Shown here piece after piece: positions 5,417 to 32,227 of a DNA stretch of 64,000 bases. The notes beneath the pieces were generated by a model that was not told the origin of the DNA, did not search any database, and saw only the letters and a program-made list of their open reading frames with translations. The DNA comes from Salinisphaera orenii subsp. orenii MK-B5 (GTDB lineage Bacteria > Pseudomonadota > Gammaproteobacteria > Nevskiales > Salinisphaeraceae): the NCBI RefSeq assembly GCF_003788635.1, contig NZ_AYKH01000043.1, forward strand, positions 1 through 64,000, given 5' to 3'. Position numbers and translations under genes: made by a program. The first letter of the stretch is position 1. Every line of letters starts with the position of its first letter.

Positions 5417-5505
5417 GATCTGCGCTCCGAACGCGCTGTATGCGCGATCAGCGCAGTATAGCCGCAATTCTTACGCTGATAACGAATTAAGGAAACAGGA
5501 CACTA
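4329..5505 (-). mobile_element. IS630-type insertion sequence, intact
   Basis: Terminal inverted repeats TAGTGTCCTGTTTC at 4329-4342 and its inverted copy GAAACAGGACACTA at 5492-5505, with the TA dinucleotide at both outer edges that IS630/mariner elements duplicate. It encloses a single full-length transposase gene read leftwards. It is inserted in the IS3-type orfA remnant. Its right edge was later used as target by the IS481-type element. Confidence 0.9.
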
Positions 5506-5507
5506 GG

Positions 5508-10500: not shown

Positions 10501-11196
10501 TCACGCTCCTTTGAATCCTTTGGCGCGCGCGTTCTCTAGCGCACGCTCGCGGCAGGCGGGATCGTTGAGATCGCCGTTCGTAAGACCGCTGAAACCATGA
10601 ATCTCGCCGCTGCCGCCGTAGCGCACCAACGCGACTTCTCGCACTTCGCCCGGCTCGAAACGCACCGCCGTCCCGGCCGGAATGTCGAGATGCATACCAA
10701 AGGCGGCTGCGCGCTCGAAATCCAGCGCCTTGTTCACTTCGAAGAAATGGTAATGGCTGCCGATCTGTACGGGTCGATCGCCTTTGTTGACGACCTTGAG
10801 CGCGCGTTTCTCGCGACCGGCGTTGATTTCAATTTCCCCCTCGGCGGGCAGAATCTCGCCAGGGCGCACGCTGTCGTCGTGGTCGTTATCGCCCGGCCGG
10901 ATGGGCTGGTGCACTGTCACCAGCTTCGTGCCATCGACAAACGTGGCCTCTACCTGCAACACAGGCATAAGGTCTGCGACGCCGGGCATGACATCGTCTG
11001 TGTTCAGAATCGTCGAACCACGGCCAATGAGCTCGGCGACGCTGTCGCCTTGTCGCGCCCCCTCCAATATTTCATCCGCGATCAGCGCGGTGGCCTCCGA
11101 GACACTCAGCGCAAGCCCCTTGGCGCGATGCTTGCGCGCAATCTCGGCGGCGGTAAAGAGCGTCAGTCGCTCCAGTTCGGTCGGCGTCAGCAGCAT
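10501..11196 (-). CDS. ureAB: Urease gamma/beta fusion subunit (UreAB)
   Basis: 231 residues. Residues 1 to about 100 are the gamma subunit ([52 protein letters not shown]), and from about 120 the beta subunit follows ([55 protein letters not shown]). Fused UreAB occurs in Helicobacter and in a second urease type scattered in proteobacteria. It precedes ureC directly. Fusion is seen; membership of the divergent urease clade is inference. Confidence 0.93.
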
Positions 11197-11216: not shown

Positions 11217-11954
11217 TCAGTTGGCGAACAGACGTGGGCTGAGCGTCTCGTGGCGCATCACCGCCATTTCGGCCAGCGGAGTGAATGCACTGGCCCGAGA
11301 CACATCCGGCACTGGCGTCACCAATAACGCCCGAATAACGGGCTGAAGCTCGGCGAGGATCAGCTGGCCAGCCAAGTGACCGACGACACCCAGACGTAGC
11401 GCCGCACTCACCAGCCCCGTGCTCAGCATGTGCGCCGAGGCAAGCAGGGCATCCTCGTGATCGATCCCGAGGGCCCGCCACAACATGCCCTGGAGTACGG
11501 CGACGTGTCCGGGTGCCTCTTCGGTATCCACCCGACGCTGATAGTCGGCCGCGTGGGCGGTGCCAAGCTCAGCGTGAACTCCCAGCAGGGAGGCACCCAG
11601 GCGACGCGATCCCTGGCGCAACTCGGCGGCGAGCGTGATCGCCTCAAGCTCAAAGTCCAGCGAGATCCAGTCGTCTAAGACACCGTCGACGTGCCACGCA
11701 GCGGCGAGAAACGCACGGTCACAGCAGGCCCATCGGTGGGTAAGCTGACCCACAATGAACTGTCTTAACGCATCGGACGCGTCATCACCCGCGCCGACGG
11801 CTCCCCGCGCGCGCTGTCGTGAACGACGGCTCGCCGTCGGGATCACCGCCTCCGCCACTAGAGTTTCCAGTCCCCAGGACCAAGCCACCGCACCGCCGGG
11901 GAAGAAGCTGTCGGCCTGCTGCAACATCAGCAAGCGGCTGGCTACGGCACGCAT
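11217..11954 (-). CDS. ureF: Urease accessory protein UreF
   Basis: Helical partner of UreD and UreG in nickel delivery, 245 residues. Recognised by LLMLQQADSFFPGGAVAWSWGLETLV near the N-terminus (UreF normally has QLxDsxxPxGxxxxSxGLE), the conserved centre LDFELEAITLAAELRQGSRRLG, and the C-terminal RLGVVGHLAGQLILAEL. A stretch of about 20 residues rich in Arg and Ala (residues 41-57) is an unusual insert. It overlaps the end of ureE by 13 bp. Confidence 0.88.
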   Translation of the reverse strand: MRAVASRLLMLQQADSFFPGGAVAWSWGLETLVAEAVIPTASRRSRQRARGAVGAGDDASDALRQFIVGQLTHRWACCDRAFLAAAWHVDGVLDDWISLDFELEAITLAAELRQGSRRLGASLLGVHAELGTAHAADYQRRVDTEEAPGHVAVLQGMLWRALGIDHEDALLASAHMLSTGLVSAALRLGVVGHLAGQLILAELQPVIRALLVTPVPDVSRASAFTPLAEMAVMRHETLSPRLFAN

Positions 11955-12397
11955 GGCGACTCCACTTGTACTTTGCCGCTTTCGATCATCGGTGTCAGCC
12001 GGTCGAGGTAGTCCTGCACCTCACCCTTGATCTGTATGGCGAGCACATCGGTATCGAAACGCACGCTCCAATGCATGTTGCCCGCGAAGTACCCGAGCTC
12101 GAGCGCCCCGGCTGCATCCACTGCCCGAACCATCAGATACTGTGGCTGGTCGGTGCGCACCATGATCGCGCGCTCGGTATCCAACAGGAGTATCGCACCG
12201 TCGCTTAGGCGCTGTGTGCGAGCTAGCCTGATCGCGCAGTCGGTCCCGGCATCGCTGGTCAGGCGCAGTCGTCGGCGTTGCACGTCATCGCCCGAAACCT
12301 GAAGCAGTTCAAGCCCGCCAACGTGCCCGATCTGATGCAGCCGTTCTGCCAACTCCGGCTCACTGGCTTGGCCCAAGATTCGATCTAGAATCAACAT
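11942..12397 (-). CDS. ureE: Urease accessory protein UreE
   Basis: Nickel metallochaperone of urease maturation, about 151 residues from MLILDRILGQASEPEL. The N-terminal peptide-binding half (RRRLRLTSDAGTD) and C-terminal metal-binding half with ELGYFAGNMHWSVRF are visible; the His in GNxHW is the conserved nickel-binding residue. There is no His-rich tail, so nickel storage capacity is probably low. The start at 12397 is preceded by GGAGC on the coding strand; an upstream extension to 12454 is less likely. Confidence 0.85.
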   Translation of the reverse strand: MLILDRILGQASEPELAERLHQIGHVGGLELLQVSGDDVQRRRLRLTSDAGTDCAIRLARTQRLSDGAILLLDTERAIMVRTDQPQYLMVRAVDAAGALELGYFAGNMHWSVRFDTDVLAIQIKGEVQDYLDRLTPMIESGKVQVESPCVP

Positions 12398-12493
12398 AAG
12401 ATGACGCTGCTCCTTCCAGGCCGACCTGCATGCCACACATCGGCGATATCCCAAGAATAATCAGGATCTTCAATTAGCAATAATTGCACCATC

Positions 12494-12802
12494 TCAACGG
12501 TATTCACGTTCGTTACCCGCGCGGTAAAGAAAGACGCAGCACGCCGCTGCCGACGGCGCGCTGCATCGCGCGTCCGGGATCTCGAACTTCTGCTGGAAAT
12601 AATCCCGTACCGCTAGCGCAGCACGTGGTGTCAACGCTGGTTTCCATAGCCAGATATCCCGCTGTCGATCGACCATCTGGCTGGCAAAGAGAGCGGCCTC
12701 GGGATCCGCACAGACGCCGACGAACCAGGCCCCGTCATTACCTTCGAATTCCTTCATGTAGCTCAGGAATTCGAACTTGATCTGCTGAACGCTGAAAGCC
12801 AC
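12494..12802 (-). CDS. Small conserved-looking protein of unknown function
   Basis: About 102 residues if translation starts at the GTG at 12802, 6 bp after the stop of the Sel1-repeat gene; an ATG at 12757 is the alternative. The product carries YMKEFEGNDGAWFVGVCADP, FASQMVDRQRDIWLWKPAL and a predicted helical ALAVRDYFQQKFEIP. I do not recognise the family. It has no signal peptide or membrane segment. The tight packing between the Sel1 and ureE genes in one operon argues that it is a real gene tied to amide or urea use. Function unknown. Confidence 0.5.
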   Translation of the reverse strand: MAFSVQQIKFEFLSYMKEFEGNDGAWFVGVCADPEAALFASQMVDRQRDIWLWKPALTPRAALAVRDYFQQKFEIPDARCSAPSAAACCVFLYRAGNEREYR

Positions 12803-12807
12803 GGCGA

Positions 12808-13506
12808 TTACGCCGGCACCGGCTGCAGGGAAACGGCCGCCGCGTTCAGACCGGTTTTTTCCCGCCATCCCTGCAACTGCGTCAGACCATCGTTCTTTTC
12901 GTTAGCCGACATCTGCCCGGCGACGCGCTCGAGCTGCGTCAAAGCAGTGCCGATTCCGTGCTGGGCAGCCATCGAGAGCCAGACGAACGCCTGGACACGA
13001 TCCTTTTCTACGCCGAGACCACACTGATAGCAGTACCCCAGCCGGGCCTGCGATGGATAATGCCCCTGCTCTGCGGCCGCTCGATACCAGCGCGCCGCCT
13101 GAGGCGGGTCTTCGGGCACATGATCGCCGCTGGAATAGAGCGTCGCCAGATTGAATTGGGCACCGCTATCGCCACCTCGGGCCGCGCGCTCGAGCCAGCT
13201 CAAACCGTCGGGCACATTCGGTTCGCAGCCCTGGCCCATAATCAACATGGCCCCGACATTGGTCTGCGCCTGAATGTTGCCGTTCTCAGCGGCCCGGCGG
13301 TACCAGACCAACGCCTGATCGACCGATGCTGGAAGACCGTGCCCTTGGGCATAACAAGCACCGACCCACATCTGGGCCATTGCATCGCCTTCTTCGGCTA
13401 GCGCCTGGAAGCCAGCTACAGCGGCGGCGTGTTCGCCCCGCTCATAGTGGGCCACGGCGGCGCTCAGCGGAGAATCCGCGGCACTTTCGTCGACTGCGGT
13501 GTTCAT
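12808..13506 (-). CDS. Sel1-like repeat protein
   Basis: 232 residues from MNTAVDESAADSPLSAA. At least five Sel1/TPR-type repeats are visible, for example AQMWVGACYAQGHGLPASVDQALVWYR, AQTNVGAMLIMGQG, AQFNLATLYSSGDHVPEDPPQAARWY and SQARLGYCYQCGLGVEKD. These form alpha-alpha superhelices for protein contacts. No signal peptide is seen, so it is probably cytoplasmic. Its start overlaps the stop of the Rieske-like gene by ATGA (13,503-13,506), so the two are translationally coupled and may act together. Its specific role is unknown. Confidence 0.8.
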   Translation of the reverse strand: MNTAVDESAADSPLSAAVAHYERGEHAAAVAGFQALAEEGDAMAQMWVGACYAQGHGLPASVDQALVWYRRAAENGNIQAQTNVGAMLIMGQGCEPNVPDGLSWLERAARGGDSGAQFNLATLYSSGDHVPEDPPQAARWYRAAAEQGHYPSQARLGYCYQCGLGVEKDRVQAFVWLSMAAQHGIGTALTQLERVAGQMSANEKNDGLTQLQGWREKTGLNAAAVSLQPVPA

Positions 13507-14591
13507 ATCATGTACTCCTTGGCGCGTCCGAACAGCTGAAGTTCGTCGCGGCTCGAAATGGTTTTCGTAATACGCTCCACGAGACGCCGCTGGCCCCATA
13601 TGCCGGCCGGATCGCGTTGTAACGGCTGTGTGGCACTTGAACCCGAACCATCATCCTCGTTACGCCATGAGCGTGAGAGCGCCGCCATGGACCACACGCC
13701 GGACTGGCCGCGGGCTTCGACCCGGTCAAACCAGTCGCTGCCATCATCGGGCGCACTGAACACCTGGACACGACACAGTGTCCGTCCGATGGCGGTGGGT
13801 TGCAGCACGATGACGCAACGACTGGACCCGTTGCTCAGCACCAGAAGATTGGGAAAACACCACGCCACGTTCAGCTCGCCGGATACTCCGTGTAGCCAGG
13901 CGTAATCGCCTATGGCCGGCGCCCGAGCTTCGTCCATCGCCAGCAGGTGCTGTGCAAGCAGCTTCCAGTTGCAGTCGAACTCGAACCAGCGCTCAGCGGT
14001 GCGCGTGTCGTCGATGGCGGGAACCAGATTATGCGCCTTGCGACCCTTTGCCATGGGTGACGCATCAAGATCGAGATTGACGAAGATGAGCGCGCTCTGT
14101 GTATCGACCTGCACCGGCAGCAGTCGCTCGGGGCGCAGACCGAGATACTGGTGTGACGCCCCCGACCCCTGTTCCAGCTCCGCACTCGTAATCGGGCCAC
14201 GGTCACGACTATAACCGCAGGAGGTGAACGAACAGCCCGTTTTGGTACCGTTTTGACATTGCAGCGGCACCATGCGACACCCGCCATGTTGAGCCATGTT
14301 GAACGCACCGACGAGTGCCCCATCGGGGTCGCGCCGGACATGAATACCGTGATAGCCGACGGTATAGGGCAGCATATCGCCGTCGGCGACGACATCGTGC
14401 TCTGTGCCGATGCATACCCAGTCGCGCGTCCAAACACGCTCGTCTTCAAGATGCGTGAACACGAGCGATCGATACGCGGCGGGCGGGAGCAGCGTACAGT
14501 TGCTCGCCTCCTCTATCGCACGCCTGTATAGATCGGCGTCGTCCAGGTTGACGCCCTCATCGAGGTAACCCAGTTCGGGGCGACGGGACAT
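13503..14591 (-). CDS. Degenerate Rieske-oxygenase-like protein (pseudo-enzyme)
   Basis: 362 residues with the overall plan of Rieske oxygenase alpha subunits: N-terminal ERVWTRDWVCIGTEHDV, a Rieske-like domain at about 50-170 and a SRPBCC-like half starting at FDCNWKLL (about 205). The cluster ligands are broken: where CxH is expected the sequence has Ala100 and His102 (NMAQHGG), and where CxxH is expected it has Cys120 and Thr123 (GCSFTSC). The mononuclear iron His motif after NWKLL is also absent (AQHLLAMDEARAP). It is therefore unlikely to be a working oxygenase; a structural or binding role is possible. It is preceded by a good AAGGAG site and overlaps the Sel1 gene. Confidence 0.7.
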   Translation of the reverse strand: MSRRPELGYLDEGVNLDDADLYRRAIEEASNCTLLPPAAYRSLVFTHLEDERVWTRDWVCIGTEHDVVADGDMLPYTVGYHGIHVRRDPDGALVGAFNMAQHGGCRMVPLQCQNGTKTGCSFTSCGYSRDRGPITSAELEQGSGASHQYLGLRPERLLPVQVDTQSALIFVNLDLDASPMAKGRKAHNLVPAIDDTRTAERWFEFDCNWKLLAQHLLAMDEARAPAIGDYAWLHGVSGELNVAWCFPNLLVLSNGSSRCVIVLQPTAIGRTLCRVQVFSAPDDGSDWFDRVEARGQSGVWSMAALSRSWRNEDDGSGSSATQPLQRDPAGIWGQRRLVERITKTISSRDELQLFGRAKEYMI

Positions 14592-14655: not shown

Positions 14656-17064
14656 TTACACGCCGCCGCTGCTGTGTCGCTCTTCTGCCGGCGCTTCATA
14701 ATCCGCCCGCCCACGGTAGTGAATCGCATCTTCAGGCGGCGCCGGCAGCGGCCCGTCCATGGAGAAGCGATCCAATACGTTCTTCGTCAGCCGCGATATG
14801 TTGTTGTCGCAGTTGTTCCAAGGTAGCGAGCCGCAGTAAGCGATCGAACTGAAAGCGAAGCAAGCTCCACCATTGGGCGTTTCGTGGAACGCGATGTCGG
14901 AGCGCACTCGGGGATGGGTCGTACCGTCCAAACCCTGCTGGTTAAACCCGAAGTCCTCCATGACCAGCAGATAGGCCTCGGTATGCCTGCCCGCAGAGGT
15001 TGCCACCACGAGCGTGTGTGGAGGCGTGCCTAGCATGGTGTCGGCTATGTCTAGCTCGAGACCGGCAGCGCCGCCGCCCACGAGCCCGAAGTTGCCGATG
15101 TCTTCGTCGTAGTCGATGCCCTCGAAAGCCCAGCTCACACGCGGGTTGTTGCTGTCCGGCGTACGCGAGTAATACGAAGAGATGTCAAAGCCCTCGGATG
15201 ACATGCCCGTGCCAGCGACAGAATGCAGATAACGGCCTCTGAACCGCCACATTCCGCCAAGTTCTCCCGTGCCTTGGTGGTAATACTCGCCCGGATCGGC
15301 GCGCCAGGTACGGATGCCCGATTCGCAACGCCGCATCTCGGTAATCACGCCGCGCCCTTTGTCTTCGTAGCCGGGGTGGAACGAGTGCACCCAGTACCAC
15401 GCGTCGGCGCCCATGTACATGAGGCGACCCCCGCGCTGGGTATAGTTGTGCAGCGCATCGAGCTGCGTGCCGGTATTGTGCTCCGGATGGGATCCCGTGA
15501 TTATCACGTTGTAAGGTTCGAGCCGGGCGAGCCCTTCGTAGGTGACATCCTCGTCAGTAAAGACGTCGTAATCGTAGCCCATGGTCTCTAGCCAGTAGAT
15601 CAAATGAAGATCCGCTGGATACTGCCAGGGCGCCTGGGCAAGAAAGTGATCGTACTTCGGTCGAATGCTGAGTATCGGACGCAGTCGCGACGACATGCAG
15701 ATACCGCTGCCGTCAGTGTGCGTGTCGTAGATTGAACCGCCATACTCGCGATGCTCGGCCAAGAACATATTCTGTTGCTGCATGATCGGCACGCGGTAAA
15801 CGAACAACTCTGCACCGCCGGCATTGCAGGCGACATGCTCGTTGGCATAAGCCATGTAACTTATGGTCGGCACCATGACGGCAATTTTGGACTGCGCCTT
15901 ACCGATTTCGGGTACGACCCAGAATGGAATATAGTCTTCGTCGCCATCGGCAGTGGTCAGCTTGGCCGCATAGAACCGGCTTTTAGCGTCGGCCGGAACC
16001 TCCCATTCGAAGTCGACCTCCCACCGTGCGTCGTCGACGTCGTCGTCGTGGAAATGAATCGCACTGTACTGCTCGGGCGCCTGCTTCCAGTCAAATACGG
16101 TGCCCGACCAGTTGTAGCCTGTCATTGCACGTGTCGGACAGTTCACCAAGCGGCCATCGAGCTGATACGGGCCGCAATCCGCAACCTTTATCGTGTCGAT
16201 ACCGATAGAGAAGTCCCAGGCCGCCACGAGGCATTTCGCCAGATCTCCTGTCGGGCCGCTGTTGCGTCGTTCCGTCAGTCCAGGCTGGGCGCCCTGCTTC
16301 ATGCTTTCGATCTCGAAACGACTCAGCGCGCGATTACATAGCCGAGGCGAATCGATCTTGCCGTTGTACTTTCCAGCAAAGCTCACACCCGCGGGCAACG
16401 ACGAGCGCGCCAACGGCCCCTCATCGAGCGCGTCCACGTGGGCGGCGATTGCCAGCGGTACCGGCACATTATGGACCGGCTCCGAAAGCATGCGCTGCAC
16501 CGGCTCGATGGCTGGGTCAAGCGCGTAAACCACCTGCGGCTCGTGATAGAGAACTGCCTCCCCGGTCTTCGCGTCAAACGTCGCGGCGAGGAAGTGCCAT
16601 GCGTGATCGCGTAACGGTTGTGCCGTTGTGATTGATTCGCCATTAATGCGCAGTTCAGCACAGCCCTTTTCGTTGAGGAACAAGCCGTAGCCCTTATCGC
16701 CCATCCACTTGGTGACCAGCCCCTGCGGGCCATGCTTCCAATATTTCGGATGTGTCTTGGGCGCAGTTGGCCAGACCCAGCACTGCAGGGTGAAGCTATC
16801 CACGTTCAGCGGCGCCGAATCAGGCACGAACGCATACGAACCGCTGTGGATCACCTGCTTACGGCCCGGTACAGTGTCCCGAAAGCCCCCCGGCACTGCT
16901 CTTTCGATAAAGCCTGGGCCACGCGGGTTCGTGTCGCCGTGGATCATCTGCACGATCTCGGCGTCGAAAGACGCCGGACCGTCGCAGTTGACGTAAAACT
17001 TGATCTTGTCGCCGGGATGAACGCTGAACTTGTCGGCGTAGCCCGTCAGACGCATTGAGGTCAT
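14656..17064 (-). CDS. N,N-dimethylformamidase large (beta) subunit
   Basis: Hydrolyses N,N-dimethylformamide to dimethylamine and formate (EC 3.5.1.56). 802 residues, close to the roughly 760 of the known Paracoccus/Alcaligenes large subunits. From memory of the DMFase structure, iron is held by two tyrosines and one glutamate; matching residues are Tyr406 (SYMAYAN), Tyr446 (GGSIYDTHTDGSG) and Glu528 (SHPEHN). The N-terminal half contains a concanavalin/LamG-like region (LQCWVWP, HAWHFLAATFD) and the C-terminal half a Rossmann-like domain (NVIITGSHPEHNTGTQLDAL, GGRLMYMGADAWYW). It lies 141 bp after the small-subunit gene in the operon between urt and ure genes. Confidence 0.88.
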   Translation of the reverse strand: MTSMRLTGYADKFSVHPGDKIKFYVNCDGPASFDAEIVQMIHGDTNPRGPGFIERAVPGGFRDTVPGRKQVIHSGSYAFVPDSAPLNVDSFTLQCWVWPTAPKTHPKYWKHGPQGLVTKWMGDKGYGLFLNEKGCAELRINGESITTAQPLRDHAWHFLAATFDAKTGEAVLYHEPQVVYALDPAIEPVQRMLSEPVHNVPVPLAIAAHVDALDEGPLARSSLPAGVSFAGKYNGKIDSPRLCNRALSRFEIESMKQGAQPGLTERRNSGPTGDLAKCLVAAWDFSIGIDTIKVADCGPYQLDGRLVNCPTRAMTGYNWSGTVFDWKQAPEQYSAIHFHDDDVDDARWEVDFEWEVPADAKSRFYAAKLTTADGDEDYIPFWVVPEIGKAQSKIAVMVPTISYMAYANEHVACNAGGAELFVYRVPIMQQQNMFLAEHREYGGSIYDTHTDGSGICMSSRLRPILSIRPKYDHFLAQAPWQYPADLHLIYWLETMGYDYDVFTDEDVTYEGLARLEPYNVIITGSHPEHNTGTQLDALHNYTQRGGRLMYMGADAWYWVHSFHPGYEDKGRGVITEMRRCESGIRTWRADPGEYYHQGTGELGGMWRFRGRYLHSVAGTGMSSEGFDISSYYSRTPDSNNPRVSWAFEGIDYDEDIGNFGLVGGGAAGLELDIADTMLGTPPHTLVVATSAGRHTEAYLLVMEDFGFNQQGLDGTTHPRVRSDIAFHETPNGGACFAFSSIAYCGSLPWNNCDNNISRLTKNVLDRFSMDGPLPAPPEDAIHYRGRADYEAPAEERHSSGGV

Positions 17065-17205
17065 AGCGTATTACCTTATTTCGGTCGAAAAAGCCCCGGG
17101 GACAGGTCTGCAAGGACGAATCCGGGAAGCTCTCGTTAATTGAACTAGGGTTGTTTATGACGACCGGCCGCCTTTGAGTGACGACCGGTAGCGGGTCGAT
17201 CTGCG

Positions 17206-17646
17206 TCAGGTCACCGGCCAGTTATCGTCCCGGCGCTTCCAGCCTTCGTGGAAATGCTCCGGCATTCCGGCTTCCGCCGGGAGTTCATCCAAACGCATCA
17301 GAAAGATGTCGTGCTGGATCTCCTGCTCATCGTCATAGACCTTATCGGTGACGAAAGCTGGCGGTACACCACGAACGCCCGAGAGTCGCCCGATACGCCA
17401 TTCTTTTTCGATTTTCGTGCAGATAACGATCAGCTTGCCCCCCGGGCTCTCGCCGCGCATGCGCATCAACACACGGCGCAGCAAAGGAAACTCATGAACG
17501 CCACCGTCGATATCGGTCGTGTCACCGGGTTCACCACAATGCAGGACCGAAAAGCCCGCCACGCCCTTCATCGAGTCCACGCAACGCCGGTGCTCGTCTA
17601 TCAGCGCCTCACGTTCAGGGGTGCCTTTTGCAGGAATCGTTATCAT
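17206..17646 (-). CDS. Probable N,N-dimethylformamidase small (alpha) subunit
   Basis: 146 residues, similar in size to the known 132-residue small subunit. The pattern PLLRRVLMRMR, GKLIVICTKIEKEWRIGRL and, near the end, DDEQEIQHDIFLMRLDEL resembles the order in the known small subunit (a short basic helix, a strand ending in EWDAYRI, then an acidic helix with HAVFLRRI). Sequence similarity is weak and recalled from memory. Position directly upstream of the large-subunit gene supports the call. The alternative is an unrelated small protein of the amide operon. Confidence 0.65.
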   Translation of the reverse strand: MITIPAKGTPEREALIDEHRRCVDSMKGVAGFSVLHCGEPGDTTDIDGGVHEFPLLRRVLMRMRGESPGGKLIVICTKIEKEWRIGRLSGVRGVPPAFVTDKVYDDEQEIQHDIFLMRLDELPAEAGMPEHFHEGWKRRDDNWPVT

Positions 17647-17705
17647 CGCTTTACTCCACTCTATTCTTGATCAGAAAACGCGTGAAAATGAGGCCGGCTG
17701 ATCGC

Positions 17706-18404
17706 TCAGACCGTCATGTGCTCGTCCACTAGCTCATCGGTGAGTTCATCGATATCGCCTTCGGCCACGACACGGCCGTTATCGATCATCAGAAACCGGT
17801 CACTTAACTTCCGTGCGACCTTGATGTGCTGCTCCGCAAGTATCAGCGTCATGCCGAGTTCCTTATTCAGCATGCGCAGCGTTTCGCCAATCTCGGCGAC
17901 GATATTCGGCTGGATTCCATCGGTCGGCTCGTCAAGCAGCAGCACCTTTGGCTTCACCGCCAGCGCTCGCGCAATGGCCAGCTGCTGTTGCTGGCCGCCG
18001 GACAACAATCCGGCACGGCGTTCCAGGTTTTCGGCCAGATAGGGGAACAGCGAGGTACACATCTCGGGTACCTCGACCTGACCGTCGGCTCTCGCAAACG
18101 ATCCGAGAAGAATATTTTCCCTAACGGAGAGCTTCCCAAATATCTGGCGACCCTGAGGGATATATCCGATCCCGCACCGGCTGCGCTCGTGCGTCGGAAG
18201 CTCGCCGATCTGTCGGCCTGCGAATTCGATCTGCCCCGTTGTGCGATCGGTAAGGCCCATGATGCTTCGCATGAGCGTGGTCTTGCCGACGCCGTTTCTT
18301 CCGAGTACGCAGACGCACTGCCCCTCATCGAGAGCAAACGAAAAATCGCGGAGTATTTGCGTTTTCCCGTAGAAGGCCGACATACTCGACATTTGCATAA
18401 GCAT
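17706..18404 (-). CDS. urtE: Urea/amide ABC transporter ATP-binding protein UrtE
   Basis: LivF-type ATPase, 232 residues: Walker A LGRNGVGKTTLMRSIMG, Q-loop IPQGRQIF, signature LLSGGQQQQLAIARAL, Walker B VLLLDEPTDGIQPN and switch His in AEQHIKV. The combination GIQPNIVAEI is typical of UrtE. Its start codon shares a base with the urtD stop (18,404). It powers uptake together with UrtD. Confidence 0.92.
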   Translation of the reverse strand: MLMQMSSMSAFYGKTQILRDFSFALDEGQCVCVLGRNGVGKTTLMRSIMGLTDRTTGQIEFAGRQIGELPTHERSRCGIGYIPQGRQIFGKLSVRENILLGSFARADGQVEVPEMCTSLFPYLAENLERRAGLLSGGQQQQLAIARALAVKPKVLLLDEPTDGIQPNIVAEIGETLRMLNKELGMTLILAEQHIKVARKLSDRFLMIDNGRVVAEGDIDELTDELVDEHMTV

Positions 18405-19153
18405 CAGGCGGCATCCTCTTCGGTCCCGAGGTATATCTCTCGAACATTCTGATTGGCCTCTATTTCGTCGATCTTGCCCTCGGCGAAGTGAGTACCCATG
18501 TGCATGACCGTCACCATATCTGCGACCCGACGCACGAATCCCATGTCGTGCTCAACCACGATCAATGTGCTGTGCTGGCGGACTTCGCGAAGCAATTTCG
18601 CTGTCTGGTCGACTTCCGCCTCCGTCATCCCGGCAATGGGTTCGTCGAGCAGCAACAGCTGCGGCTCCTGCATCAGCGTCATGCCGATCTCAAGCCACTG
18701 GGTCTCTCCGTGCGAAAGCAGGCCAGCCACAATGCTGAGTCGATTTTCCAGGTTGACTAAAACACTGACTTCCTCAAGCTTCGCGAGCATAGCTTTGTCG
18801 CGAAACTTCAGCATATTTCGAAACGGGTTCACCTCACGGCTAAATGCAATCTCCAAATTCTCGCGTACCGTCAGCTCCTTGAATACAGCCGGCACCTGAA
18901 ATTTGCGACCGACACCGCGTCGTGCGATATCGCTTTCGCTCAACCCGGACAACTCATCACCACGAAAACGGACGCTGCCGCTACTGGGCTTGAGCCTGCC
19001 ACTGATCAGATCCATAAGTGTCGTCTTGCCCGCACCATTCGGTCCGATGAGGCAGGACAACGTCTGCTCAACGACGTCCATGCTGAAGCCTTGGATGACA
19101 TGGTGGCTATCAAAGCTCTTGTGTAGATCGCGTATCTCAAGAACACCCCCCAT
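18404..19153 (-). CDS. urtD: Urea/amide ABC transporter ATP-binding protein UrtD
   Basis: LivG-type ATPase, about 249 residues from MGGVLEIRDLHKSFDSHHV. Walker A IGPNGAGKTTLMDLISG, Q-loop RKFQVPAVF, signature LSHGETQWLEIGMTL (LSHGExQWLEI is typical of UrtD) and Walker B LLLLDEPIAGM are visible. The start at 19,153 is chosen because AGGAG lies 9 bases before it and it begins just after the urtC stop; longer frames upstream overlap urtC. Confidence 0.92.
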   Translation of the reverse strand: MGGVLEIRDLHKSFDSHHVIQGFSMDVVEQTLSCLIGPNGAGKTTLMDLISGRLKPSSGSVRFRGDELSGLSESDIARRGVGRKFQVPAVFKELTVRENLEIAFSREVNPFRNMLKFRDKAMLAKLEEVSVLVNLENRLSIVAGLLSHGETQWLEIGMTLMQEPQLLLLDEPIAGMTEAEVDQTAKLLREVRQHSTLIVVEHDMGFVRRVADMVTVMHMGTHFAEGKIDEIEANQNVREIYLGTEEDAA

Positions 19154-19157
19154 AAAT

Positions 19158-20285
19158 CTATACTCCTGCCTTTTCGGCATTTGCAGCAGCCGGGCTTTTC
19201 GCGCGACCGTGTGGCGGACTCTCTTCCGTACTCGAGCGGGAACGCTTGGCAAGCAGCATTTCCAGCAGCCCCGCCAGTCCGTTGGGCAGGAATCGCACAA
19301 TGATCACGAAGAAAAAACCGAGAATAAGGTGCCAGCTATTGAGAAACTGGTCGCCTAGATAGCTTTCACTACCCTGAATTAAAAATGCACCGATGATCGC
19401 GCCAATCAGCGAAAGACGGCCGCCAACTGCAGCCCAAATCACCATCGTGATGCTAAAAACCACGTCGAACTGGTCGGGTGAAACGTATTGAATGAGAATG
19501 GTGAAACAACACCCCGCGACAGCTGCAATAAAGGCAGAAATCGCGTAGATAAGCGTTTCATACAGAGCGACGTTATAGCCGAGAAACCGGACACGCTCGG
19601 GATCCTCGCGTAATGCACGGACGATCTGACCGAACTTACTCTGGTTAAGTAGCTTAGCGAGCACGGTCAAACTAAAGAGCAGGCCAAAAATAAGCCAGTA
19701 AGCAGCCGGCGAGTAGGGATCCAAGCTGTAACCTGCGACTTCCAACGGCATCCGCGGGCTTATCCCATTCGCACCGTTGGTATAAGGCTGCATATCCAGC
19801 ACGAGAATGTAGAACGCACTGAGCATTGCAAGCGACATGATCGCGAAAAACGGCCCCGAAACGCGTGCCTGGAACATCAACGCGCCAAATATCAACGAAA
19901 AGATCGTTGGAACGGCCAGCGCGAGGAATATCCCGCCACCAGTACTCCAGAACGGCTCCCAAAACCAGGGCAGTTGTTCGAGACCGTTCGTGGACATGAA
20001 TGATGGTAACGGCGAAAATTCGGGATCTTGGGATTGCATCTGCATGGTCATGGCCATGCCGTATGCGCCCATACCGAAAGCGATACCTTGGCCTAGATTG
20101 AGAATCCCGCCTGTCCCCCAACACAGACTGATCGACATCGCCAAGAGCCCGTAGATGCCGAACACCGCCAGCTGATTTAGCAGGAACGGATCGGCTTGCA
20201 TAACCGGGATGAGTCCTAGCGAAACAAAGAAGACTATGTAGACGACCCACTGTGCACGCTTGTCGTGATAAATATTGCCGTTCAT
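19158..20285 (-). CDS. urtC: Urea/amide ABC transporter permease UrtC
   Basis: LivM-type permease, 375 residues with about ten membrane segments; landmarks are LAMSISLCWGTGGILNLGQGIAFGMGAYGMAM, RALREDPERVRFLGYNV (the coupling EAA-like loop) and GPF-type FFAIMSLAMLSAFY. UrtC proteins carry the LNLGQG motif. The soluble C-terminal tail (after FLPNGL) is Arg/Ser/Ala-rich. It follows urtB by about 50 bp. Confidence 0.92.
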   Translation of the reverse strand: MNGNIYHDKRAQWVVYIVFFVSLGLIPVMQADPFLLNQLAVFGIYGLLAMSISLCWGTGGILNLGQGIAFGMGAYGMAMTMQMQSQDPEFSPLPSFMSTNGLEQLPWFWEPFWSTGGGIFLALAVPTIFSLIFGALMFQARVSGPFFAIMSLAMLSAFYILVLDMQPYTNGANGISPRMPLEVAGYSLDPYSPAAYWLIFGLLFSLTVLAKLLNQSKFGQIVRALREDPERVRFLGYNVALYETLIYAISAFIAAVAGCCFTILIQYVSPDQFDVVFSITMVIWAAVGGRLSLIGAIIGAFLIQGSESYLGDQFLNSWHLILGFFFVIIVRFLPNGLAGLLEMLLAKRSRSSTEESPPHGRAKSPAAANAEKAGV

Positions 20286-20334
20286 TACATTTTCCGCGTT
20301 TGCTTATTGATGCGACTGCTCTGTTCGGAGGCCA

Positions 20335-21216
20335 TTACCGACGAACAGCTGTATTCGCGAAAAGCCCGTTGGGCCGAAAGCGGAGCACGATGACGATCAG
20401 AACGAAAAGCAAGAACTGCGCAAACGTGCTGTTGAAGAAGTATGAAAAAAACGACTTAAACTCTCCCATCATCGCGCTGGCTGCAATACTGCCCACTAGC
20501 GGCCCCCCGCCCGTTACCACAACCAGAAACGACTCAACCACATAGTTAGATCCCATCGTGGGTAGAACGATGGCCAACGCTGAAAACAAGCACCCTGCAA
20601 CACCGGCCAAACCAGCGCCGAGCGCGAAGGTACACATATAAATACGTTCCGAATTGACCCCAAAGGACGCTGCCATCTCACGATTCTGCGTGACGGCGCG
20701 AATCTTGATACCAAAGTAAGTGCGGTAGAACAGATACCAGATCCCTACTATGAGAACGACAGTCATGAGTACGATCAGTATTCGAAGGCTGGACATGTTC
20801 ATGATGCCCAGCGAAACATTGCCGGACAGGAACTCCGGCACCTGAACGTACTTGGGAGAGCTGCCGAAAATCATGCGAACGCCCTGGGTCAGCATCAAGG
20901 AAACGCCCCAGGTCGCCAGAAGCGTATCAAGCGGTCGGTGATATAGGTATCGGATCAAAACGCGCTCAAAAAACAAACCAATGAGCGCCACCACCACGAA
21001 CGAGATCGGCAAGCATAAGAGAAACGGCGTACCGAGATAAGCTTGCGCACAATAGGCTGCATACGCACCAAGCATGATGAACTCGCCGTGCGCCATATTA
21101 ATGACGCCTGCGGTCCCGTAAATAATGGTTAGCCCAAGCGCGGCGACGAGCCAGATACTTGCGATGCTCAGGCCGAGCACCAGCGACCCCATAAGTGGAG
21201 CCCACGAGTAATCCAT
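20335..21216 (-). CDS. urtB: Urea/amide ABC transporter permease UrtB
   Basis: LivH-type permease, 293 residues. Landmarks: ALGLTIIYGTAGVINMAHGEFIMLGAYAAY, RPLDTLLATWGVSLMLTQGVR and the coupling loop IRAVTQNREMAASFGVNSERIY. Many UrtB proteins carry a long N-terminal periplasmic extension of about 200 residues; this one does not, like the shorter amide-type permease FmdE. It lies 89 bp after urtA. Confidence 0.92.
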   Translation of the reverse strand: MDYSWAPLMGSLVLGLSIASIWLVAALGLTIIYGTAGVINMAHGEFIMLGAYAAYCAQAYLGTPFLLCLPISFVVVALIGLFFERVLIRYLYHRPLDTLLATWGVSLMLTQGVRMIFGSSPKYVQVPEFLSGNVSLGIMNMSSLRILIVLMTVVLIVGIWYLFYRTYFGIKIRAVTQNREMAASFGVNSERIYMCTFALGAGLAGVAGCLFSALAIVLPTMGSNYVVESFLVVVTGGGPLVGSIAASAMMGEFKSFFSYFFNSTFAQFLLFVLIVIVLRFRPNGLFANTAVRR

Positions 21217-21304
21217 AACGATCTCCCGCCCTTATGAAACCGCTCACGTTCCGGAGAGCCCAGGGCGTGAGCGGACAGTTGACGACATTTCGCCCTGGCG
21301 CTAT

Positions 21305-22612
21305 CTAAATGACGTCCTTGCGAATACTGCCACTCGGCAATTTCAGGCCCTGCGCCGTGCAGGTCCCGGCGTCTGGATAGATCGAATAAGGAAGAGGCTC
21401 CACGTGAGAATCAGCTGTCTTGACGATCTTGAAGCTTCCATCTTCCTGGCACTGGCCAATCTTGGGCACGAGCCATGTATTGAAGTTGTTTTCGTCAACC
21501 CAGACTTCACCTTCTGGCGATACATCCGCACTCAGCCGCACGCCCGCCGCCGCATCACGAATTAATCTGGGCGTAACATTCTCCATGCCGTTCTCGTCAA
21601 TCGCCTTCTCGATTGCCGCCTTGAACACATACGCCGAGTTATAGGTTTCTTCCATGTTGTAGTGGGTAACACCACTCTTGCCGTACTTGCTCCCTAGAAA
21701 GCCGTCCACGAATTTCTTGTTTGTCGGATTATCCAGCGCTTGGAAATAAGGGGCCGACAAGAAGTGACCAGCCCCATATTCGATACCCATGGCGCGAGTT
21801 TCGATCTCACCGGTTGTCAGCGAGGCGATTGGCATATCTTCGGCGTTGAAACCGGCCTGCTTGAACTGCCGATGGAACGCAATATCCGAAGCGCCCACGA
21901 CAGTCGAGAAGATGAAGTCCGGCTTGGCCCTACGAATCTTGTTCAGAACGGATCCGAACTCCGAGCTGCCTAGCGGAACGTACTCCTCGCCCAGCAACTC
22001 GCCGCCAGCATCATCGAGCCAGATTCTAGCGTTCTTATTCGATTCCTTCGGCCAGACATAGTTGGAACCAACAAAGAAAACGCGTTTGCCGAAGTTCTCT
22101 ACCATGTAGGGAATCAATTCTTGGGAGTGCTGATTCGCCAGCGGCCCTGTACATACGATGTTCTGCGAGCATTCCTTGCCTTCGTAGCAGGTCGGATAGA
22201 ACAGCAGGTTGTCGCGGCTCATAACTGTTGGCATGACCGCTTTTCGGCTAGCCGACGTGTAACAGCCAAAAACCGAGATCACTCGATCCCGCAGTATCAA
22301 CTCGCGCATCTTCTGCGCATAGACATTCATATCCGATTTAGCGTCAACGATGATAGGCTCGATCGGAGATCCGTTGATGCCCCCGGCCTCGTTGATCTCG
22401 TCAATGGCATACTGCATCACCAATGCCGAGTCTTCCTCGGGCACGGCGAGGCCACCCGTTAACGAAAATAGAATACCGACCTTAATTGGCTCCCCCTTTG
22501 CTAATGTAGCGGCGCGAGCGCGTGATGCACTTAAAAGAAGGCCGGGCGCCAAACTCGCAGCCCCAGCAGCCATCGAAAAGTTCTTAACAAAAGACCGTCT
22601 CGTATATTTCAT
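21305..22612 (-). CDS. urtA: Urea/short-chain amide-binding protein, UrtA/FmdD family
   Basis: Periplasmic substrate-binding protein, about 435 residues from MKYTRRSFVKNFSMAAG. The twin-arginine motif (TRRSFVKNF) and hydrophobic stretch ending near ASRARA suggest Tat export. Mature part begins with KVGILFSLTGGLAVPEEDSALVM and contains FGCYTSASRKAVMP and LLFYPTCYEGKECSQN, which are landmarks of the UrtA/AmiC/FmdD group. Because amidase and DMFase genes surround it, the ligand may be a short amide such as formamide or DMF rather than urea; this is inference. Start 22,612 is preferred over 22,615 from RBS spacing (GAGGG). Confidence 0.88.
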   Translation of the reverse strand: MKYTRRSFVKNFSMAAGAASLAPGLLLSASRARAATLAKGEPIKVGILFSLTGGLAVPEEDSALVMQYAIDEINEAGGINGSPIEPIIVDAKSDMNVYAQKMRELILRDRVISVFGCYTSASRKAVMPTVMSRDNLLFYPTCYEGKECSQNIVCTGPLANQHSQELIPYMVENFGKRVFFVGSNYVWPKESNKNARIWLDDAGGELLGEEYVPLGSSEFGSVLNKIRRAKPDFIFSTVVGASDIAFHRQFKQAGFNAEDMPIASLTTGEIETRAMGIEYGAGHFLSAPYFQALDNPTNKKFVDGFLGSKYGKSGVTHYNMEETYNSAYVFKAAIEKAIDENGMENVTPRLIRDAAAGVRLSADVSPEGEVWVDENNFNTWLVPKIGQCQEDGSFKIVKTADSHVEPLPYSIYPDAGTCTAQGLKLPSGSIRKDVI

Positions 22613-24768: not shown

Positions 24769-25656
24769 ATGAGACCCCCGGTACTCGACCTGCGCGCCCT
24801 GCAGAGCCTCGTCGCCATCCTCGACACCGCCAGCTTCACCCGCGCCGCGGAGCAGCTGAACTACAGCCAGTCGGCGATCAGCATGCAGATCAAGCGGTTG
24901 GAGGCGGAGCTAGGCACGCGGCTGATCGAGCGGGGCTCGGTGTTGCGACCGACCCGCCAGGGCCGTCAGGCGCTCGGTCATGCCAGGGAAATGCTGCGCC
25001 TGAACAGCGAACTGCGGCAGCGCGTGGCCGAAAGCGAGGTCGCCGGCCGCGTGCGTCTGGGCATGCCGGCCGACTTTGCGTTCTACCTGCCCGACACGCT
25101 TACCGTGTTCGCCGAACGCTATCCGCAGGTGGAGACCGAGGTCCGCACGGAGCTCAGCGACGCCCTCGTGCGTTCGGTCGCCGCGGGCGAGATCGATCTG
25201 GCGATCGTGACCCGCCAGGCGCATTCGCCCGGCGGCACGCGTCTGCGCCGCGAACCGCTCAAATGGGTCGGCGCCCCCGGCTCGGCGGCGCATCGACAGG
25301 AGCCGCTGCCGCTGGCGCTCTATCCGGAGAACACCTGCGAATTCCGCCAGGCCGCGACGCGGCGCCTGGACGCCATCGGCCGTGCCTGGCGGCCGGCCTA
25401 TGTCAGTCAGGCGTTCGCCGCCCTGCACTCACCGGTGAGCGCCGGGCTGGCGGTCACCGTGGCCACGCCGAGCATGCTCGGCGCCCACCTGGAGATACTC
25501 GACGAGGACGCGACCGGCCTGCCGCCCCTGCCGGAGGTCGACATCGCCATGCACCGGCGACCCGGGCGGCTGGGCTACGCCGCGCGCCAGCTCGCCGATC
25601 TGCTCGTCGAACGGCTGCGGACCACCGGCGAGCCCGGCGCGAGCGTCACGCCTTGA
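24769..25656 (+). CDS. LysR-family transcriptional regulator
   Basis: 295 residues. Winged helix-turn-helix at residues about 5-65 (LDLRALQSLVAILDTASFTRAAEQLNYSQSAISMQIKRLEAELGT), then the periplasmic-binding-like effector domain. Divergent from the EamA exporter gene, the classic LysR arrangement, so that gene is its most likely target. Its 3' end overlaps the 3' end of tdm by 11 bp on the opposite strand. Confidence 0.9.
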   Translation: MRPPVLDLRALQSLVAILDTASFTRAAEQLNYSQSAISMQIKRLEAELGTRLIERGSVLRPTRQGRQALGHAREMLRLNSELRQRVAESEVAGRVRLGMPADFAFYLPDTLTVFAERYPQVETEVRTELSDALVRSVAAGEIDLAIVTRQAHSPGGTRLRREPLKWVGAPGSAAHRQEPLPLALYPENTCEFRQAATRRLDAIGRAWRPAYVSQAFAALHSPVSAGLAVTVATPSMLGAHLEILDEDATGLPPLPEVDIAMHRRPGRLGYAARQLADLLVERLRTTGEPGASVTP

Positions 25657-28000
25657 GCCGCCTGCGCTCCGGGTCGTAGTGCGGCATCGCCACCACGGTG
25701 GCGGTCAACCGTTTCTGCTGGCCGTCGAGCTTGCCCACTTCCACGCGGGTGTCGGGCCCGGCGTGCTCGGCGGCGACCCGGGCCAGGGCGATGCTGCGGG
25801 CGAGCGTCGGCGAGCGCGTGCCGCTGGTGACGACGCCGATCTGCTGGCGGCCGATGTAGACGCCGTCGCCGTGGGCGGCGGCCTCCTCGCCGTCCAGCGT
25901 GAGGCCGACCAGCCGCTGCCGCGGTCGATCGCGACGCGCCTCCAGCGCGGCCCGGCCGATGAAGTCCTCGGCGTTCTTCTTCAGCGCCACGGCGAAGCCG
26001 ATGCCGGCCTCGTAGGGATCGGTCCGGTCGCAGAATTCGTGGCCCGCGGCGATCAGTCCGGCCTCGATACGCAGCATGTCGAGTGCTTCCATGCCCATGG
26101 GTCTCAGCCCGTGCGGCGCGCCGGCGGCCCGGATGGCCTGCCAGATCTCGTCGGCGTCGTCGGGATGACAGAACACCTCGTAGCCGAGCTCGCCGGTATA
26201 ACCGGTGCGGGAGACGATCATCGGCCGGCCGCGTTCGTGGCCGAGCCGGGCGATGGCAAACCGGAACAGGCCGAGCTCGTCCATGTCGGCCTGATCGGGG
26301 CGCGTCCAGACGATCTCGCGCAGGATGTCGCGCGCGGCCGGCCCCTGCACCGAGACGTTGTGCAGCTGCGCGCGCGAGCTCTTGATGCGCACCTCGAAGC
26401 CGCCGACCTCGGCCTGTTCGCGCAGCCACTCGCCGCAGTATTCGATCCCGCAGATCCAGCGGAAGTTGTTGTCGGCCAACCGGAAGAGCGTGCCGTCGTC
26501 GATCATGCCGCCGTCGGGCCAGCACATCGCCGAATAGGCGACCTGGCGGACGCCCACGCGCCGCACGTTGCGGGTGAGCGTGTGCTGCAGCAGCGCTTCG
26601 GCGTCCGGGCCCATGACCTCGAACTTGCACAGCGCGGACAGGTCGATGATCGCCGCTTTCTCGCGACAGGCCCAGTATTCGGCGATCGCGCCGTGCTGCG
26701 GGTAGCTGTTCGGCAGCCAGTAGCCCTCGTGCTCGACGTAGTCGCGGGTGAGCTGCGAGGTCTGGCCGTGAAAACCGGTCTGTTTCGTCATCCGGGCCTC
26801 CGCGTCGGGCCGTGGCCGGTAGGCGATGGAACGCCGCGCCTCGAGGTCGGCGTCGTAGACGCGCACGTGGATATCGGTCGGGTTCCAGCCGTTGGCCGGG
26901 TCGATGTCGTCCGGACAGGCCGAGGAGACACACACCAGATCGGTGAGCGCGCGCAGCAGCACGTAGTCGCCGGGCCGGGACCAGGGCTCGTCGAGCATGA
27001 GCTGATGCGCATCGTCGAACTCGGTGTTGTAGAAGAAGTTCATCGACATCCAGCCGCGGCGGGCGGTGACGCCGTAGGCGTCGAGCTGGCCGTTGAAGTT
27101 GTCGGAGCAGTTGGCGTGACCGAAGTAGCCGGCTTCCTCGTAGTAGGCCGGGTTGCAGGCCAGCGCGAAGGCGTCGTGGCGCGCGCAGGTGTCCTGCACG
27201 ATCTCGACCAGCGGCTGGAAGTCGACGTCGTAGTATTTCGCCGCCAGCCCCGGCTGCGGCGAGCTGCGCGCCATGAGCGACCGCGTGGTGGTCACATCCA
27301 GACAGCGCTCGATGCCGCGATCCAGATGCGCGGTGGAAAACGCCTGGAAGTCGGTGCACTGGCGCCCGGCCACGTCGATGATCTGGATCCACTGCCCCGC
27401 GCGCACCGGATAGGCCTGCGCGGTCGCGCGCGCCACCCGGAAATCCTGATCCGGATCGGCCAGCGGCGCGGGCAGTTCCGGCGTCTCGCGCTCGGCGCGG
27501 GCGGGGTCGGCGCGCTCGACGTAGACGACGAGATCCGTCGGCGGCATGCCGCCGGCGACCGGCATGGGCTCGCCGGCGGCGGCGACCACGCAGAGCCCGT
27601 CGCCGCTGGCGGTCAGTTCGGCGACGCTGCCGGCACGGCTGCCCTCGGCGAACAGCGGGATCGCGCGCGCGCCTTCGACGGCCAGTTCGTAGGGCGCGAG
27701 CCGCTCGCGCAGGCGCGAACCGCGCCGGGGTTCGGCCAGCATCGTCTGCAGACCGTGGGCGGGCTGTCCGGCGCGCGCGCCGAACAGGCCCGGGTCGCCG
27801 CGACCGTCGACGAAGCCCACCACCTCCGCGACCTGGCCACCCTCGACGTCGACCACACGCAGGGTGTCGCCGCCGCGAATCCGAAACACGGCCAGGCTGC
27901 CGCCATCGACCGGGTAACGCTCGCTGCCGCGCGCCAGCGCGGGCTCGCCCGGGCGGCGGACGCCGCGTGACGCCGGCGCGGTGTTCGGTACGACGATCAT
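25646..28000 (-). CDS. tdm: Trimethylamine N-oxide demethylase Tdm (DUF1989 plus GcvT domains)
   Basis: Converts TMAO to dimethylamine and formaldehyde; the formaldehyde is captured on tetrahydrofolate. 784 residues: DUF1989-type N-terminal half (about 30-400) and GcvT-like tetrahydrofolate-binding half (about 405-784; QHGAIAEYWACREKAAIIDLS, SRTGYTGELGYEVF, GLRPMGMEALDMLRIEAGL). Cys282, Cys298 and Cys362 are spaced 16 and 64 residues apart, the same spacing I recall for the three-cysteine zinc site of Methylocella Tdm. Last gene of the methylamine operon, 51 bp after tmm. DUF1989-GcvT fusions with other roles exist, but the tmm and dimethylamine monooxygenase neighbours favour Tdm. Confidence 0.85.
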   Translation of the reverse strand: MIVVPNTAPASRGVRRPGEPALARGSERYPVDGGSLAVFRIRGGDTLRVVDVEGGQVAEVVGFVDGRGDPGLFGARAGQPAHGLQTMLAEPRRGSRLRERLAPYELAVEGARAIPLFAEGSRAGSVAELTASGDGLCVVAAAGEPMPVAGGMPPTDLVVYVERADPARAERETPELPAPLADPDQDFRVARATAQAYPVRAGQWIQIIDVAGRQCTDFQAFSTAHLDRGIERCLDVTTTRSLMARSSPQPGLAAKYYDVDFQPLVEIVQDTCARHDAFALACNPAYYEEAGYFGHANCSDNFNGQLDAYGVTARRGWMSMNFFYNTEFDDAHQLMLDEPWSRPGDYVLLRALTDLVCVSSACPDDIDPANGWNPTDIHVRVYDADLEARRSIAYRPRPDAEARMTKQTGFHGQTSQLTRDYVEHEGYWLPNSYPQHGAIAEYWACREKAAIIDLSALCKFEVMGPDAEALLQHTLTRNVRRVGVRQVAYSAMCWPDGGMIDDGTLFRLADNNFRWICGIEYCGEWLREQAEVGGFEVRIKSSRAQLHNVSVQGPAARDILREIVWTRPDQADMDELGLFRFAIARLGHERGRPMIVSRTGYTGELGYEVFCHPDDADEIWQAIRAAGAPHGLRPMGMEALDMLRIEAGLIAAGHEFCDRTDPYEAGIGFAVALKKNAEDFIGRAALEARRDRPRQRLVGLTLDGEEAAAHGDGVYIGRQQIGVVTSGTRSPTLARSIALARVAAEHAGPDTRVEVGKLDGQQKRLTATVVAMPHYDPERRRLKA

Positions 28001-28051
28001 GCCGCTCCCCTGCCCGCAATCCGCCTGGTGGCGCGCTCGAGCGGCATCACG

Positions 28052-29419: not shown

Positions 29420-29464
29420 GGTCTTTCCTCGGATCGGTCGAAGACGAAATTCAGGGGCGAGACG

Positions 29465-30535: not shown

Positions 30536-30587
30536 GACTCCCGCAAGTCGGCTCGCGTTGGATGGAAAGGCGTGGACGCGAATCGCG

Positions 30588-32152: not shown

Positions 32153-32227
32153 GCCGGCGATCCTCCTTACGCAAACAGCCAAACGTCGCCGGCCGAACCG
32201 TCACGCAGACGGCTCGGCGCGGCCGCC

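Follow-up and report, generated by a model that had tools for sequence, protein, structure and literature searches.

The stretch analysed here, a window of 64,000 nt on contig NZ_AYKH01000043.1 of Salinisphaera orenii subsp. orenii MK-B5 (all coordinates refer to it), carries a minus-strand gene run in which homologues of both subunits of N,N-dimethylformamidase (DMFase), dmfS and dmfL, lie between the genes of a Urt-type ATP-binding cassette (ABC) importer and those of a urease. With a probability of about one half, this run can be read as an operon dedicated to the import and hydrolysis of small amides or ureas that bear N-methyl groups, which would yield methylamine and ammonia; N-methylformamide, N-methylurea and methylguanidine are candidate substrates. 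This reading draws on a residue change in the active site of the DMFase-like pair, on an importer whose binding protein departs from the urea-specific type, on a variant urease and on the co-occurrence of the pair with genes of methylamine assimilation. Below, L-numbers denote fetched loci and G-numbers genomes, G000 being the source genome.

The run consists of urtABCDE, dmfS, dmfL, a Rieske-like gene, sel1, a small open reading frame (ORF; orfX), ureE, ureF, ureAB, ureC, ureG, ureD and a HupE/UreJ gene. A previous sequence-only reading of this DNA had located both DMFase-subunit homologues between urtE and the urease genes on one strand, and this is indeed where they are; its description of short gaps holds from urtA to ureE, where gaps do not exceed 141 nt, but it overlooked the three genes between dmfL and ureE. 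A terminator scan of the minus strand gave no terminator-like site from urtE to the Rieske-like gene, and one with a 15-pair stem (12567-12533) inside the small ORF, upstream of ureE. The window has 14 terminator-like sites against a mean of 14.6 in shuffled sequence, and neither the promoter nor the terminator scan of it gave an excess over shuffles. The whole operon may be one transcript.

The large subunit homologue, dmfL (14656..17064), matches PF20254 at 306 bits and scores 534.6 bits against Paracoccus DMFase (6lvb), compared with 402.8 bits against N-acetyl-(R)-beta-phenylalanine acylase (8huy). The small subunit homologue, dmfS (17206..17646), gave a weak match to 6lvb_B in a single-sequence phmmer search (E 0.053) and a match to pAMI2 DmfA1 in a profile comparison with hhalign (probability 95.3, E 2.3e-8). 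The window DmfL belongs to a monophyletic clade in a tree of 92 sequences (a quick method with SH-aLRT support only, and with some long branches elsewhere in the tree); the clade has support 100 and a stem of 0.83, and neither pAMI2 DmfA2 nor the Methylobacterium DM1 DMFase is part of it. Sequences at least 58% identical to the window protein were counted as clade members; these show 60-86% identity, and all other relatives at most 49%.

The full-length clade rows (55 of 55) retain the iron (Fe) ligands Tyr399, Tyr440 and Glu521 together with His519 and Glu657. Position 547, however, is Asp in every one of these rows, whereas all 28 non-clade rows, and the plasmid enzymes used for comparison, have Asn there. 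According to the available part of PMC7686228, the parDMFase variants N547A and E657A had no activity on N,N-dimethylformamide (DMF), Asn547 was proposed to stabilise the oxyanion, and N-methylformamide was the best substrate by catalytic efficiency. Loss of plasmid pAMI2 abolished DMF use in Paracoccus aminophilus, as stated in the portion of the literature at hand, and the genes on its plasmid pAMI5, which encode a member of the clade, are described there as not 'linked to DMF utilization' (PMC4543880). Taken together, the clade-wide Asn547 to Asp change, the separate clade and the pAMI5 member speak against the identification of the pair as a DMFase in the sequence-only reading, and the name is doubtful for the clade as a whole given this residue change. 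The accompanying suggestion, that the natural substrate may be something other than DMF, gains support from the same change and from the pAMI5 genes, as far as that source goes.

Members of the clade are found in Alpha-, Beta- and Gammaproteobacteria and in Actinomycetota, usually with the core order kept (57 loci), and their hosts include Pseudomonas, Methylopila, Methylobacterium, Hyphomicrobium, Xanthobacter, Bradyrhizobium, Paraburkholderia, Mycobacterium and various metagenome-assembled genomes (MAGs). The 57 loci comprise 54 of the 80 loci of a species-genome scan (the other 26 being non-clade), the window, G103 and pAMI5; the scan covers the best 80 of at least 524 confirmed stretches, so further members may exist, and the genomes sampled, being species representatives or MAGs, do not count as independent events. 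Among the 48 of these 57 loci with at least 6 kb of sequence upstream and 3.5 kb downstream, urtB-E lie upstream in 36-37, urtA-type genes occur in 40 (a few being sensor-type genes without other urt genes), and dmfS, sel1 and orfX are present in 46, 43 and 45, respectively. Clustering over all 57 loci places 56 in the dmfS cluster, 50 in the sel1 cluster and 53 in the small-ORF cluster. The Rieske-like ORF is present in 54 of the 57 by a separate count, as the presence flags of the flank-qualified count underestimate this gene, some of whose ORFs overlap upstream. The urease gene ureC lies within the fetched stretch in 19 of the 50 clade loci with at least 8.5 kb downstream, and amiE in 7 of 57, window counted.

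Thirteen congeneric genomes gave no match, which makes acquisition of the genes likely. Among 369 genomes drawn from across the class, 12 had any match, and the single close relative, G103 (76%), belongs to another family of the same class and shows the order from urtABCDE to ureD identically, with one extra ORF; chance assembly of the window order is excluded by this second occurrence. The extra ORF (L023, 7275-8642; 455 aa) lies between the small ORF and ureE, is not in the window and has no NCBIfam match. A plasmid search led to pAMI5 of P. aminophilus, whose large subunit is 69% identical. In one order, 34 of 297 genomes match DmfL at E <= 1e-150, so relatives are not rare.

The five importer genes, urtA (21305..22612), urtB (20335..21216), urtC (19158..20285), urtD (18404..19150) and urtE (17706..18404), encode a substrate-binding protein of the urea/amide family, two permeases (UrtB and UrtC) and two ATPases. 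UrtB-E all pass the cut-offs of their models (325.3 against 250.3 for TIGR03409, 310.9 against 296.2 for TIGR03408, 311.5 against 304.1 for TIGR03411 and 296.4 against 285.8 for TIGR03410, respectively). UrtA, in spite of 398 bits to PF13433, fails the urea-specific one (TIGR03407, 342.6 against 492.75); among structures it matches 8tg1 at 282 bits, UrtA 7s6e at 234 bits and AmiC 1pea at 187 bits. The source genome offers a control of its own, since a second urtABCDE lies beside a urea carboxylase (TIGR02712, 1925 bits, cut-off 1304) and an allophanate hydrolase (TIGR02713, 825 bits, cut-off 511), and its UrtA passes the urea model with 555.3. The clade binding proteins scored, both transporter-type (window, L032, L044, L055) and sensor-type (L022, L032, L047), are all below the urea cut-off; the UrtA of L049, which precedes the urease genes there, passes it (531.1). 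Counted over roughly 10 kb, the DMFase-like pair also has the importer for a neighbour in a larger share of loci (36-37 of 48) than it has urease (19 of 50). This companionship, and the difference between the two UrtA scores in one genome, make it plausible that the importer carries amides, in agreement with the earlier proposal that UrtABCDE may take up amides besides urea. A third Urt-like set in the source genome (L124, on contig C41 of G000) adjoins a carbon-nitrogen hydrolase of the nitrilase superfamily.

The urease genes at the other end of the run are ureE (11942..12454, with a start probably at about 12397; NF009752, 177.7 against 162), ureF (11217..11954; PF01730, 111 bits), ureAB, a fusion of the gamma and beta subunits (10501..11196; NF009671, 352.6 against 243), ureC (8787..10499; TIGR01792, 812 against 680), ureG (8112..8768; TIGR00101, 239 against 204) and ureD (7255..8106, start approximate, open frame from 8184; PF01774, 121 bits), followed by the HupE/UreJ membrane protein gene (6594..7205; PF04955, 142.7 bits). 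The window UreC is the only one above the TIGR01792 cut-off in the source genome, and its Ni-site motifs align with those of 1ejw. In the same alignment, Gly stands opposite Ala167 and Ala363 (Klebsiella aerogenes urease numbering), and the window protein has a shorter loop behind residue 161 than the Klebsiella enzyme. In the available text of PMC7433671, the carbonyls of Ala167 and Ala363 hold the urea amide; contact being made by the backbone, urea binding by the variant urease is compatible with these changes.

The motif GSDSQGMGR and a second variant motif are common to 18 of 19 dmf-linked UreC rows (18 proteobacterial, window included), and the actinobacterial row (L085) differs from the variant set as well. 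Eight canonical ureases from clade genomes carry GGG(T/S)GP... and SDSQAMGR instead and are split from the variant set on a long branch, in a tree that carries a long-branch warning. Among 297 genomes of one order, GSDSQGMGR occurs in 14 of 16 clade genomes against 8 of 281 others (p 1e-16, kinship uncorrected), and 12 of the 16 have it on the same contig, at a distance of up to about 25 kb. Of 48 clade genomes, 45 have the variant motif, 35 the canonical motif and 35 both; these genome counts rest on a DNA motif, and matches in the 48-genome scan are read as genes only where they fall in fetched loci. The 20 loci from the motif scan of the order all gave UreC-like ORFs, two of them of another type, GTDTQG. 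These two (L149 and L150, in G570 and G745) represent a second divergent UreC-like kind with GTDTQGMGR and ESHAHI motifs. GSDSQGMGR ureases also occur without the DMFase-like pair, often with urt genes and amiE (L139-L148, L151-L158, L167-L174). In the stretches checked, urt genes and amiE or an AmiR-like gene adjoin the variant urease without dmfSL in 6 of 8, which gives the dmf module the look of an insertion that separates urtE from the amiE/urease part of such an operon. A view that puts the urease operon first was set aside because of the 19 of 50 loci with ureC in the fetched stretch, despite the linkage within about 25 kb in one order.

The N-methylglutamate (NMG) pathway is a route of methylamine assimilation, and genes that we take to be its gmaS and mgsABC recur with the clade. 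NMG-type genes lie within the fetched flanks of 9 of 57 clade loci; model labels of the mgsABC-type genes are amidotransferase-like, formylmethanofuran-dehydrogenase-C-like and glutamate-synthase-like. At the level of genomes, in the order of 297, MgsC matches at E <= 1e-170 are found in 16 of 16 clade genomes against 82 of 281 others (p 8e-9). Where clade dmfL is absent, they occur in 7 of 8 genomes that carry the variant urease motif against 75 of 273 that lack it (p 9e-4); both tests are uncorrected for kinship. At E <= 1e-100, MgsC matches are present in 46 of 48 clade genomes. In the source genome, contig C2 breaks off within a gmaS-mgsABC run, and the 55 bases at its end are repeated at window position 23350; a repeat of the mgsC end probably broke the assembly there. 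The window holds two mgsC-type 3'-end fragments on the plus strand (3-209 and 23326-23688), of which the former, truncated where the contig stops, is the 3' end of a gene taken to be mgsC and is 77-78% identical to the gene of L049. In light of this co-occurrence, which points to N-methyl compounds and methylamine, the description of the locus as general nitrogen scavenging in the sequence-only reading appears too vague. No paper linking methylurea, methylotrophs and methylamine, and none joining dimethylformamidase and urease, was found within the limited literature set searched.

In the favoured reading, the compound would enter through the Urt-type ABC importer with its binding protein of the amide/urea family. 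DmfS-DmfL, with the DMFase fold and an active site remodelled by the Asn547 to Asp change, would act as an Fe(III)-tyrosinate amidohydrolase, cleaving an N-methyl C-N bond and releasing methylamine. Where present, the variant urease, its pocket widened, might hydrolyse urea or N-methylurea as substrate or product, and AmiE would take primary amides. Methylamine would then flow into the NMG pathway (gmaS, mgsABC), with ammonia as the other yield, and the Rieske-like, Sel1 and small proteins would be accessory. A narrower version, a two-enzyme catabolic system for N-methylurea or methylguanidine with the four-Cys Rieske-fold protein as iron handler of the hydrolase, is put forward only tentatively. 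Here the change from the oxyanion Asn to Asp would suit a urea- or guanidine-like substrate, the two Ala to Gly changes of the urease would admit an N-methyl group, and both enzymes would be served by the dedicated Urt-type importer and empty into the NMG pathway.

Several observations weigh against the favoured reading. A P. sulfuroxidans strain growing on DMF has chromosomal dmfA1/dmfA2, as the available part of PMC11381386 reports, and the P. sulfuroxidans genome in our set (L069) contains a clade member and no canonical DmfA2 match at E <= 1e-165; if the enzyme of the DMF-growing strain belongs to the clade, DMF itself could be a substrate. P. sulfuroxidans is also one of the two clade genomes (of 48) without an MgsC match at E <= 1e-100 and, along with Hyphomicrobium D-2 and Mycobacterium AZCC_0083, one of the three without the DSQGMG motif, so the urease is not obligatory. 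The names gmaS and mgsABC appear in none of the curated models, and the gmaS-like gene passes a model for type III glutamate--ammonia ligase. Among the non-clade loci, mgsABC-type genes occur in 1 of 26 (L101, mgsC 52%), and L106 has gmaS-like matches at 26-30% only. Furthermore, genomes with only non-clade relatives are enriched in mgsC, if to a lesser degree (11 of 18 against 71 of 263, p 0.004), and in the variant urease motif (3 of 18 against 5 of 263, p 0.01), which suggests that the association with mgsC belongs in part to the family at large or to a methylotrophic way of life, and the co-occurrence test in the order takes no account of kinship.

The earlier interpretation, that of a true DMF/N-methylformamide hydrolase in an amide-scavenging operon whose importer carries formamides, whose products are formate and dimethylamine or methylamine and whose urease is simply co-regulated, is an unlikely but serious contender. 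It draws on the conserved Fe centre, His519 and Glu657, on nearby genes for dimethylamine and methylamine, in and beyond the window, which fit the products, and, within the limits of those sources, on the preference of parDMFase for N-methylformamide and on the DMF-growing P. sulfuroxidans strain. It has to contend with the clade-wide replacement of Asn547, which is needed for DMF hydrolysis, with the placement of pAMI2 DmfA2 and the DM1 enzyme in another clade, and with the division of roles between pAMI5 and pAMI2 in DMF use as given in the partial sources above. Slightly less probable is plain scavenging of urea and primary amides, in which the importer would carry urea and short amides for urease and AmiE, and DmfSL would act on a different simple amide, unconnected with methylamine. 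The non-clade variant-urease stretches described above, 6 of 8 with urt and amiE/AmiR-like genes and without a dmfSL match, favour this reading, as does the amiE next to the window operon. The same genome, however, has a separate urt set beside urea carboxylase and allophanate hydrolase, a second plain urease would be redundant in the 35 clade genomes (of 48) that have the canonical urease motif, and the mgsC association of the clade goes against a system detached from methylamine.

A route for methylguanidine or other alkylguanidines, in which DmfSL with Asp547 would form urea and methylamine, or N-methylurea and ammonia, and urease would complete the degradation, seems quite improbable. Its appeal is that one substrate accounts for the urease and methylamine links alike, and a carboxylate at the oxyanion position might suit a cationic C=NH2+ centre. 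Methylguanidinase (EC 3.5.3.16) is, to our knowledge, an enzyme without a known gene. On the other side, the importer is of the urea/amide family, and the stretch around the pAMI5 locus lacks a urease. An Rfam scan of the window and nine of the 57 clade loci gave only tRNA at gathering score, so there is no guanidine riboswitch in these sequences, which counts against this route. No paper joining methylguanidine, methylamine, urease and a hydrolase was found within the limited literature set searched.

The proteins encoded between dmfL and ureE are conserved with the pair. The Rieske-oxygenase-like protein (13503..14591) matches biphenyl dioxygenase (PDB 1uli) at E 9.1e-10, but the first Cys and the second His of the CxH...CxxH motif are missing from it, and with no His column of at least 60% after residue 130 it has no 2-His-1-carboxylate site; Cys105, 112, 120 and 125 are invariant in 54 of 54 rows. 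Its AF2 model (pLDDT 85.7 from 36 sequences) matched CntA in Foldseek (E 1.5e-15, TM 0.55-0.58, rmsd 10.3) and also biphenyl dioxygenase. It may be a non-oxygenase metal protein serving DmfSL, and may handle or deliver iron. The Sel1-repeat protein (about 12808..13506) scores 127.9 bits to PF08238. The small ORF (about 12494..12802, with a putative GTG start), recognised by its recurrence in the cluster, gave a confident model (87.6); the search for Pfam families over cut-off found none, the window protein has no PHROG, and the model has no PDB fold match at E <= 0.001.

Beyond the operon, the aliphatic amidase gene amiE lies at 338..1384 on the plus strand (NF009802, 701 against 427), and two transposase genes, of DDE_3 and IS481 type, lie between the amiE side and the urease side (4328-6545). 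On the right flank, a methylated-amine island adjoins the operon (25646..32182, minus strand), with genes for trimethylamine N-oxide (TMAO) demethylase, trimethylamine (TMA) monooxygenase and dimethylamine (DMA) monooxygenase (NF053776, 1142 against 1100; NF058570, 777 against 675; NF041259, 114 against 60; PF11927, 243 bits).

If the favoured reading is right, the DMFase family would no longer be only a puzzle of solvent pollution but part of a metabolic operon that is widespread and acts on natural substrates, and this operon would probably supply methylamine to the NMG pathway in many bacteria. A single residue, Asn547 or Asp, may mark substrate class in this family, and a urease subfamily may not be urea-only, although standard models call it urease.

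Compared with known systems, the operon combines familiar parts in altered form. With Paracoccus DmfA1A2 (6lvb; pAMI2) it shares the two subunits, the PF20254 fold and the active-site residues Tyr399, Tyr440, Glu521, His519 and Glu657, but the window DmfL is only about 39% identical to pAMI2 DmfA2, belongs to a separate clade and has Asp at position 547, as in all 55 rows; the pAMI2 dmfA genes also have different surroundings, namely a LuxR-type regulator and IS elements. On pAMI2, a predicted 'AAK-1 beta-lactamase' (L029, 6096-6359) lies wholly inside an IS3 transposase annotation and is probably a false database call. The pAMI5 locus of P. aminophilus JCM 7686 is much closer, with the same clade, a 69% identical large subunit and the order dmfS-dmfL-Rieske-orfX, but it has an AmiS/UreI channel in place of Urt, a binding protein alongside a histidine kinase and a response regulator, and no Sel1 or urease gene within the stretch. 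The importer has the five genes of the urea transporter UrtABCDE in the same order, with UrtB-E above their model cut-offs; its UrtA, unlike the second UrtA of the genome, is below the urea cut-off. Likewise, the urease resembles Klebsiella aerogenes UreABC in its Ni-site motifs and in a UreC above the TIGR01792 cut-off, and differs in its separate long-branch clade, two Ala to Gly changes and shortened loop. Rieske oxygenases such as CntA and biphenyl dioxygenase share a predicted fold and a weak sequence match with the window protein, which has four invariant Cys instead of the CxH/CxxH motif and no conserved catalytic His. Finally, transport of formamide by Urt beside a formamidase has already been suggested in print, and the amiC-amiR-amiE clusters with an ABC transporter and the amiE-fmdAB-urtABCDE clusters described in the same source share with the window an amide hydrolase adjoining a Urt-type transporter, but the available part of that source mentions neither a DMFase-like pair nor a Rieske-like protein in them (PMC13209695).

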